Shown here: positions 14,687 to 32,952 of the stretch, piece by piece
Layout of the letters: each line of letters opens with the position of its first letter
Numbering within the stretch: position 1 is the stretch's first letter
Source: Flexibacter flexilis DSM 6793
Lineage (GTDB): Bacteria; Bacteroidota; Bacteroidia; Cytophagales; Flexibacteraceae
Reading direction: 5' to 3'
Length of the DNA stretch: 64,000 nt
Assembly: GCF_900112255.1 (NCBI RefSeq)
Contig: NZ_FOLE01000007.1
Span: forward strand, 186,001-250,000
The notes under the pieces: model-generated
Databases searched by the model: none
What the model was told of the DNA's origin: nothing
What the model saw: only the letters and a program-made list of their open reading frames with translations
Made by a program: the position numbers and the translations under genes

Positions 14687-15943
14687 TTAGTAGTGGCACT
14701 TAGAACATTCCAAACCACCAATGTTTTCAACTTTCATTGGTTCTTTGCTCTTCTTAGCGTGCATTGCCACTAATTTATCGTAGTAAGCATTACCTTCCGC
14801 TTTCACTACTGTTTCGCGGTGGCAATTGATACACCAACCCATTGTCAATGAAGAGTGTTGTTGTACAACTTCCATGTCTTGAATGTTACCATGACAAGTT
14901 TGGCATTCTACACCACCAACTTTCGTGTGTTGTGAGTGATTGAAGTAAGCCAAATCAGGAAGATTGTGAACACGTACCCATTCAATAGGTCTGTTTTTCT
15001 CTACGGCAGAATACAACTTCTTGATTTCAGGAGATTCTGTTTTAATTGAGTTGTGACAGTTCAAACAAATGTTTACAGAAGGAATACTTGCAGATTTTGC
15101 TTTATAAACACCTGTGTGACAGTAGTTACAGTTGATTTCGTACATACCAGCGTGCAACTTGTGCGAGAACGCGATTGGCTGACGTGGTGCATAACCTTGG
15201 TGAATACCAACGCTATATACTTTATCATAACCTGCTTTAGCAATCATTATGAAGAAAACGAAACCAACAGCCGCTTTGAACGCTACGCTACCAAAGAATT
15301 TGTCAAAGCCTAATGTTTGGCTAATCACTTCTTTGTCGTCTTCGTCCAAACCTTCAGTGTTGCTGTTCAAGTATTTGGTAAGAACGCTTACAAGTAAGCC
15401 CAACACTACCAATACTAAGAACAATACGAGCACCAATGCCGCTAATACATAAGTAATAACGCCGTTGTCAGCAGGAGCAGCTTCTTTAGCAGCACCTTCT
15501 GCACCCGCAGCATCTGTTTTTTTCTCCTCTACTTTCGCAGGAGGATTTTTGATGTAGGCGATTACAGCCTTAATTTCATCATCTTTCAAGAAGTCATGGT
15601 TTGGCATGAATTGCTTGTACTTGTCGTACAAACCTTTCGCATACGCATTTCCTCCTTCAATTGTTTTTTGAGGATACTTAATGAAATTAAGTATCGCTGC
15701 TTCAGACGGCCAACGCTTAGTCGCGTCGCGGAGAGCTGGCCCCACTACCACCTCATCGATGGCGTGGCATTGCTTACAGTTGGCATCAAACACTGCAGTC
15801 CCCTTTTCTATCTGGGCTGCATCTGGTGCTTGGGCATAGGCCTGCGTCGAGAGCGCAAGACTTGACACACCAAATACCAAGGCAAGCAAATAGGTTTTGA
15901 ATCGGTTGTAATGGCTACACATTGCTGTCATGGTTTTATTCAT
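14687..15943 (-). CDS. actA: alternative complex III multiheme cytochrome ActA with fused N-terminal monoheme domain
   Basis: From the ATG at 15943 the product has 418 residues. A signal peptide (to about residue 38) is followed by a monoheme cytochrome c domain (CKQCH, 56-60), an Ala/Glu-rich linker, two hydrophobic helices, and a C-terminal part with five more CxxCH sites (CNYCH, CLNCH, CQTCH, CINCH, CSKCH), making six hemes in all. Start choice: a longer frame opens at 15973, but that base lies inside the -7 promoter element, so 15943 is much more likely. ActA is the first gene of the block and its hemes carry electrons from ActB to ActE or the oxidase. Confidence 0.93.
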   Translation of the reverse strand: MNKTMTAMCSHYNRFKTYLLALVFGVSSLALSTQAYAQAPDAAQIEKGTAVFDANCKQCHAIDEVVVGPALRDATKRWPSEAAILNFIKYPQKTIEGGNAYAKGLYDKYKQFMPNHDFLKDDEIKAVIAYIKNPPAKVEEKKTDAAGAEGAAKEAAPADNGVITYVLAALVLVLFLVLVVLGLLVSVLTKYLNSNTEGLDEDDKEVISQTLGFDKFFGSVAFKAAVGFVFFIMIAKAGYDKVYSVGIHQGYAPRQPIAFSHKLHAGMYEINCNYCHTGVYKAKSASIPSVNICLNCHNSIKTESPEIKKLYSAVEKNRPIEWVRVHNLPDLAYFNHSQHTKVGGVECQTCHGNIQDMEVVQQHSSLTMGWCINCHRETVVKAEGNAYYDKLVAMHAKKSKEPMKVENIGGLECSKCHY

Positions 15944-15972: not shown

Positions 15973-16003
15973 CAAATGTAAGCTGCGATTGCTATTATTC
16001 AAA
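15973..16003 (-). promoter_or_regulatory. promoter of the act-cta respiratory operon
   Basis: On the minus strand TTTG (16003-16000) is followed by exactly 19 bases and TACATTTG (15980-15973). This is the Bacteroidota primary-sigma consensus TTTG-N19-TAnnTTTG. Transcription would start near 15966, giving a 5' leader of about 23 bases before the actA ATG at 15943. Confidence 0.85.
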
Positions 16004-16176
16004 TATCAAAAATCAGGCATTTTCACTTTTTTTAGCAAAAGGAAAAGTTTATTATTTTTATAAATATCTGATAAGCAAACGCTTGCATATTTGGCAAAAT
16101 AGACTCCTCTTATTTAGAATTGTTTTAAATTATACTTTCGGTTGATTTTTGAAATAAAAAATGAACTTTACTAAGT

Positions 16177-29214: not shown

Positions 29215-30375
29215 TTACTTTTTCTTGGATTTATTGGCGCGCGCCCACCAAATCATGAAACCCGTAAGCGGCAAAGATGCACATATCGCACTGGCTACGA
29301 AAGCCAAGATTTTGCCCCAAATCCCCAGAATCGCCCCAACGTGAATATCATAATTGGCCGTTACGAGCTTTTCCCCAAAGTTTTTGTCTTCGTGGCGGCG
29401 TTCTTTGAGCAATTTGCCTGTGTAACGGTCGTATTCCAACGAATGACTGTGATAATAAAGTCCGTCTTTTTGCTGCACATAAACCCCAATGACAGAAGCG
29501 GTGTCTTCGGGAGCTGCTGGCCGAATCTGGAAACCATTGGCCGTGGCGTGGCGTGTACGCGTTGTTTGAGCAGCAATATCTAAAGCATTGACGGCAGTCG
29601 TGGCAGGGTTAAATACGGATTTGGCTGGTGTAAAATCTGGCGGCGTAACCGACAGCGATGCCACCACATACACCAGCATTTGCACCCACTGAAACGCCCA
29701 AACCAAGCCCGTTACGGCCAAAATCGTAGCGATAGAACCCGCATAAAAACCTAACACGTTGTGCAAATCGTAGTTTTTGCGTCGCCATTGGGTCGTATTT
29801 TTCCACTGAAAACCCAAACGTTGTTTGCGTGCCGCTTTATTTTTTGGCCACCAAAGCACCAAACCCGACAGCAGCAACACCACAAACGCAAGTGTTGCGT
29901 AGCCTACAATGGGTTGCCCATAGCGCGTTTCGAGCAACAAACTCCAATGCAACATTTTAACCACATGAAAAAAGTCTGTTTCCTCGTCATAAATCCGCAA
30001 AATCTGGCCTGTATAGGGATTTACATAAATGGCTTTGTAATAAATAATATGGCTGAAATATGTAACGGCCTCTTCGTCTTCTTTGAAGGTATAAAACACC
30101 CAACTTTTGTCGGGGGCGTTGTAAATATTAACCCAAGAAAGTTGCTCTTCTTTGCCAATTTTTTGTTGTGTATTTTCCCACAAAATACTGGTAGGCAACA
30201 TTTTGCCTTCGGGCTGAACGTACATCACGTCTTTGCGCTGCGCGTTGGTTATCTCTTCGCTAAAAGCAAAAATACAACCCGTGATAGCCACCACAAACAC
30301 AATAAGGCCAGAGGCCAGCCCCAACCACAAATGAACCTTTCCTACGATTTTTTTAAACGTGCTTTTATTTTTCAT
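29215..30375 (-). CDS. PepSY-associated transmembrane protein (iron-uptake-linked)
   Basis: From the ATG at 30375 (TTG at 30381 rejected) the product has 386 residues. Four helices: about 16-38, 138-160, 190-215 and 340-370, with a PepSY-like periplasmic part between. Typical motifs are KIVGKVHLWLGLASGL at the first helix, HWSLLL, and the second PepSY-type block ASVIGVYVQQKDGLYYHSHSL. Members near siderophore receptors (PiuB, FpvG-like) are thought to reduce ferric siderophores or help iron release in the periplasm; several histidines at helix ends could bind heme. It follows the TonB receptor with a terminator-like hairpin between. Confidence 0.88.
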   Translation of the reverse strand: MKNKSTFKKIVGKVHLWLGLASGLIVFVVAITGCIFAFSEEITNAQRKDVMYVQPEGKMLPTSILWENTQQKIGKEEQLSWVNIYNAPDKSWVFYTFKEDEEAVTYFSHIIYYKAIYVNPYTGQILRIYDEETDFFHVVKMLHWSLLLETRYGQPIVGYATLAFVVLLLSGLVLWWPKNKAARKQRLGFQWKNTTQWRRKNYDLHNVLGFYAGSIATILAVTGLVWAFQWVQMLVYVVASLSVTPPDFTPAKSVFNPATTAVNALDIAAQTTRTRHATANGFQIRPAAPEDTASVIGVYVQQKDGLYYHSHSLEYDRYTGKLLKERRHEDKNFGEKLVTANYDIHVGAILGIWGKILAFVASAICASLPLTGFMIWWARANKSKKK

Positions 30376-30393
30376 AAACAATTGAAAAACAGA

Positions 30394-32842: not shown

Positions 32843-32899
32843 AATAGAAATATTGATAGTTGGTAAAAGTAATTTCTCAAATCGGCTGCAATATTATTA

Positions 32900-32916
32900 T
32901 TTAGACTAAATCTAAA
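32900..32916. promoter_or_regulatory. palindromic operator 1 of the siderophore receptor
   Basis: TTTAGACTAAATCTAAA is a perfect TTTAGA-N5-TCTAAA inverted repeat. It lies within the likely promoter spacer, so a bound repressor would block RNA polymerase. The form fits a DtxR- or Fur-type metal repressor; which one is inference. Confidence 0.75.
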
Positions 32917-32935
32917 CAAGCAATTTGAAAAGTAT

Positions 32936-32952
32936 TTTAGAATTAGTCTAAA
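32936..32952. promoter_or_regulatory. palindromic operator 2 of the siderophore receptor
   Basis: TTTAGAATTAGTCTAAA repeats the TTTAGA-N5-TCTAAA pattern with a different centre, 36 bases from operator 1 centre to centre, just upstream of the likely -33 element. Confidence 0.75.

Follow-up and report, generated by a model that had tools for sequence, protein, structure and literature searches.

Which regulator reads the two perfect palindromes that lie upstream of a TonB-dependent siderophore receptor gene in Flexibacter flexilis DSM 6793? The window, by which is meant the whole stretch of 64,000 nucleotides that was analysed, contains two exact copies of TTTAGA-N5-TCTAAA on the 5' side of the receptor gene and its PepSY neighbour, 36 bp apart from start to start (Table 1), as an earlier note on this DNA had reported. 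The PepSY_TM gene follows the receptor gene by 85 bp on the same strand, start codons here and below being first-ATG guesses, so that distances to an ATG are approximate. The two genes probably form one operon. The earlier note had described the palindromes as alike in their arms and different in their centres. The likeness of the arms holds, but the centres are not unrelated: the proximal and distal boxes together form a 20-nt inverted repeat with 95% identity, so that the boxes are identical at 16 of 17 positions when read in opposite orientations. The statement that the window has no third copy is likewise true of exact matches, none of which was found in the 64 kb besides the receptor pair, but it fails when one mismatch is allowed, as a third box of this type precedes a respiratory operon.

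Table 1. Predicted boxes, promoter elements and genes, with positions in the window unless a locus is named
Feature	Position	Strand	Remarks
Proximal predicted Fur box	32900..32916	-	Exact match; forward TTTAGACTAAATCTAAA, coding strand TTTAGATTTAGTCTAAA
Distal predicted Fur box	32936..32952	-	Exact match; forward TTTAGAATTAGTCTAAA, coding strand TTTAGACTAATTCTAAA
Predicted -33 element TTG, receptor promoter	32917..32919	-	Layout shared with L173, L186, L020 and L021
Predicted -7 element TAATATTG, receptor promoter	32889..32896	-	One mismatch to TAnnTTTG; orthologues read TAATANNTTTG
TonB-dependent siderophore receptor, 791 aa	30467..32842	-	TIGR01783 above cut-off; Plug and TonB barrel domains
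PepSY_TM protein	29215..30381	-	PF03929, E 2e-64
Third Fur-type box (predicted), coding strand TTTAAAACAATTCTAAA	16113..16129	-	Upstream of act operon; one mismatch to motif
Predicted -33 element TTG, act promoter	16000..16002	-	Strict TTG-N19-TAnnTTTG match
Predicted -7 element TACATTTG, act promoter	15973..15980	-	141 bp downstream of box centre
ActA-like multihaem cytochrome c, first act-operon gene	14687..15943	-	Pfam; operon continues to about 2209
Boxes with one mismatch: before aconitase, in the nuoA–nuoB interval, and before a 4Fe-4S oxidoreductase	L012 1501-1517; L010 1501-1517; L098 2522-2538		Own genome

Promoters of the Bacteroidota use -33 and -7 signals. Such signals have been stated for Riemerella (PMC5609570). 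A standard sigma-70 scan upstream of the receptor gene returned no promoter because the phylum uses these elements. The predicted receptor promoter, TTG-20-TAATATTG, is of the -33/-7 type, and the proximal box occupies its spacer. The earlier note had placed the first palindrome in the spacer of a degenerate promoter; the position in the spacer stands, while the promoter belongs to the Bacteroidota type and not to the type for which the sigma-70 scan was blank. The arrangement TTG-box-TAATANNTTTG is retained at the orthologous receptors named in Table 1. An alternative layout, with two boxes 58–66 bp apart that flank the promoter, was found at receptors of the same genome (L110 and L105) and of relatives (L174, L178, L179 and L181), the promoter between the boxes having been scored in L110 and L105 and judged by eye for L174 and L181. 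The boxes of L110 (6457 and 6520) and L105 (2589 and 2652) lie exactly 63 bp apart, or about six helical turns, and bracket a strict -33/-7 promoter. No box was found upstream of some relatives of the receptor, namely L175, L177 and L182–L184.

The Fur, PerR and Zur boxes of Bacillus subtilis (TGATAATnATTATCA, TTATAATnATTATAA and TCGTAATnATTACGA) are 7-1-7 palindromes that have the same geometry and the same AAT-N-ATT centre as the boxes described here, with an outer half-site of TGAT, TTAT or TCGT where the present boxes have TTAG. A full-text literature search for the palindrome core gave a single match, the Fur protein of Riemerella anatipestifer, whose box ATTTAGAATTATTCTAAAT is backed by a fur deletion and by gel shifts (PMC5609570). 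Work on the rhuB box of Riemerella has reported metal-dependent binding of Fur with a Kd of 4.3 nM, together with derepression by a factor of more than 20 when fur is mutated (PMC10986502). The Riemerella boxes are the same 19-bp palindrome, they also lie 5' of TonB receptors near the start codon (PMC5609570, PMC10986502), and the candidate regulator in F. flexilis, likewise of the FUR family, matches the Riemerella protein in type. In contrast to Riemerella, the present receptor has two boxes in opposite orientations 36 bp apart, one of them exactly in the -33/-7 spacer, and binding to them is predicted. When all window positions were scored with a matrix from the published Riemerella boxes, positions 16112–16130 before the act operon ranked first, the distal receptor box second and the proximal box third; with a matrix from the three gel-shift-backed boxes, the distal receptor box ranked first and 16112–16130 second, just below it.

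The genome encodes a canonical Fur, L016 (PF01475, E 4e-28), the closest solved structures of which are Fur proteins. Identity between L016 and the closest FUR-family protein in each of the five genomes with compared orthologous receptors is 43–79%, and the recognition-helix core ATxYNT is common to all of these proteins. The match to boxes bound in Riemerella, the presence of L016, and a DtxR-type domain that was found only in a permease together assign the boxes to Fur. As judged from sequence, the receptor palindromes are very probably operators of Fe(II)-Fur in its Bacteroidota form, with the core TTAGAAT-N-ATTCTAA, and the earlier proposal of a dimeric metal-responsive repressor site at an iron-uptake gene is supported, with one predicted box inside the promoter.

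A second FUR-family protein, the Zur-like L017, is also encoded, and Fur, Zur and PerR-type proteins all use 7-1-7 palindromes. Binding of the boxes by L017 or by a PerR-like activity in place of Fur is nevertheless very unlikely: the target genes serve the uptake and use of iron, L017 clusters with histidine-rich Zur-like proteins, and in Flavobacterium cucumis, where one FUR-family gene was found and is of the L016 type, the orthologous receptor keeps its boxes. The earlier note had left the choice between a DtxR/IdeR-like and a Fur-like repressor, and the Fur-like half of that choice is the one retained. Operators of DtxR/IdeR and MntR resemble the present boxes in being palindromic and in being bound by metal-dependent dimeric repressors of metal uptake, but their core sequence differs. 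That a repressor of this type owns the receptor sites is highly improbable, as the boxes match experimentally bound Fur boxes and a search of the genome for a soluble DtxR-family repressor found none; the sole DtxR-type domain detected (PF02742) is the C-terminal tail of the metal ABC permease L018. This protein (1495–2802, C3) is an ABC-3 metal permease that carries a C-terminal DtxR-type metal-binding and dimerisation domain; an HTH-like stretch separates the two. A further iron-homeostasis regulator of the Bacteroidota, MliR of Bizionia argentinensis, was set aside as a candidate because it is described as MerR-like and as a putative activator (PMC9478572).

In the 4.25-Mb genome the exact motif occurs four times, against none for a reversed control pattern and an expectation of 0.85 copies under an order-2 Markov model, and all four copies stand 5' of iron-uptake genes. 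No close pair of the exact motif appeared in 10 Mb of sequence simulated with an order-2 Markov model. One-mismatch counts are noisy (33 matches genome-wide versus 54 for the reversed control) and the two-mismatch search of the window is uninformative, so context and conservation were used instead of counts. Several of the one-mismatch matches, inside unrelated genes, are noise. One-mismatch copies precede feoAB (7 bp before feoA), an imelysin gene, DUF6607, a PepSY/DUF2271 operon with an ankyrin gene (Pfam) and a third receptor. Read in context and with Pfam, the loci headed by exact or one-mismatch boxes also include a receptor with HmuY, and imelysin genes are two in number. In L108 (C4:186500–195500), an imelysin, a membrane protein like HTTM/vitamin K-dependent gamma-carboxylase and a TonB receptor have an exact box at their head. 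One-mismatch boxes were also noted at aconitase, nuoA/nuoB and 4Fe-4S oxidoreductase loci (Table 1).

Exact sites were further sampled from 59 relatives, one site per genome. These sites were intergenic in 26 of 29 cases, whereas the reversed control gave 6 of 30 (Fisher p = 6e-8, a value that overstates independence because the sampled genomes are related). Among the genes beside the exact sites are PepSY, imelysin, DUF6607, haem oxygenase, TonB receptors, HemA and ActA. In five relatives (L039, L051, L056, L057 and L058) the exact pattern lies upstream of hemA, which encodes glutamyl-tRNA reductase, and some of the centres of these hemA sites are not Fur-like; upstream of hemA in F. flexilis no good site was found, only a two-mismatch match. 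It is scarcely credible that the receptor repeats are chance palindromes of AT-rich intergenic DNA, for although two-mismatch matches in the window are at shuffle level (8 observed, 5.8 expected), the exact sites of the genome exceed expectation and all precede iron genes, exact sites have a marked intergenic bias relative to the reversed control, and the boxes are kept upstream of orthologues. The genome scan that the earlier note proposed thus gave enrichment before TonB receptors, PepSY genes and other iron genes, both in this genome and in relatives. Its view that the pattern is specific to the receptor gene does not hold, as the motif marks at least eight iron loci and a second operon in the window.

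With Fur as the preferred regulator, control of the receptor may be pictured as follows. In iron-rich conditions, Fur dimers loaded with metal would sit on both boxes; the proximal dimer would lie across the spacer that separates the -33 TTG from the -7 TAATATTG, thereby blocking RNA polymerase, and the distal dimer would strengthen occupancy. When iron is scarce, apo-Fur would depart, and the siderophore receptor and the PepSY membrane protein would be expressed. The same Fur would govern seven or more further iron loci in the genome. What we infer in this scheme is that the organism's own Fur binds and represses, together with any cooperativity of the box pair.

The third Fur-type box of the window precedes the act operon, an alternative complex III/cytochrome oxidase operon identified from Pfam domains of ten genes (including ActD PF11821, NrfD, COX1, COX2 and COX15), which contains ActA, an Fe-S protein, NrfD, ActD, a monohaem cytochrome, COX2, COX1 and COX15. 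A significant Fur-type site was found upstream of ActA in 26 of 30 genomes (loci L142–L171), site p-values being derived from 200 Markov shuffles each with a floor of 0.005. Regions upstream of aconitase, taken largely from the same genomes as a negative control, had a site in 7 of 30 (Fisher p = 1e-6), and the aconitase box of F. flexilis was rejected as a generally conserved site on this count. The neighbouring gene on the 5' side of ActA is not kept among the genomes, which assigns the box to the act operon. In L142–L171 the interval from the box to the act promoter repeatedly contains an element like TGAnnATCA (often CTGATnATCAG), which lies at about 16068–16076 in the window and may be bound by another activator.

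The act box lies so far upstream that steric block of the act promoter is unlikely; the natural reading is activation from a distance or the relief of another repressor. RNA-seq of Elizabethkingia points in the direction expected of activation: the quinol:cytochrome c oxidoreductase cluster, called bc1 in that study, is expressed 4.1–8.6-fold more strongly in iron-rich medium (PMC7221216). To us, its listed subunits look like those of alternative complex III. Quinone-binding subunit 1 of Riemerella drops when iron is lacking and is reduced in a fur mutant, and its iron response persists in that mutant, so Fur is not the sole input (PMC5609570). No paper that links Fur with alternative complex III was found in the literature searched. 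The box could instead be a repressor site of an unseen upstream promoter, or a site for another regulator with a similar motif, and the chances of this fall just short of even. The iron response that outlasts fur loss in Riemerella suits such a reading, as does the greater degeneracy of the act boxes in their left half than in their right. Against it, the consensus of the ActA boxes, TtATTTAnAATnnTTCTAAATtA, is over 19 bp the Fur motif, 22 of the 26 box loci carry a strict TTG-N19/20-TAnnTTTG promoter whose -7 element follows the box centre by 118–162 bp, and the complex III-type genes of Elizabethkingia rise with iron.

Distal, iron-dependent activation of the act operon by Fur is offered tentatively, as a possibility drawn from sequence comparison, and it makes sense physiologically for a complex rich in iron. 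By extension, one Fur might, across the order, give opposite outputs according to box position, a proposal to be held with some reserve: a box in or beside the promoter would repress uptake, and a single box about 120–160 bp upstream of the -7 element would, together with the conserved TGAnnATCA element, place alternative complex III, and through it the main cytochrome chain, under the control of iron-loaded Fur as an activator.

Overall, the receptor boxes are a further case of the known Bacteroidota Fur box, and what is newer is the box before the respiratory operon. An operator that could be called only Fur-like or DtxR-like from a reading of the sequence has now been assigned an identity, and the gain is a transferable Fur motif with two promoter layouts for a lineage in which Fur has been little studied. 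The analysis has also revealed a conserved Fur-type box before alternative complex III. If Fur does activate this complex, the iron regulator would directly ration the iron-rich respiratory chain.
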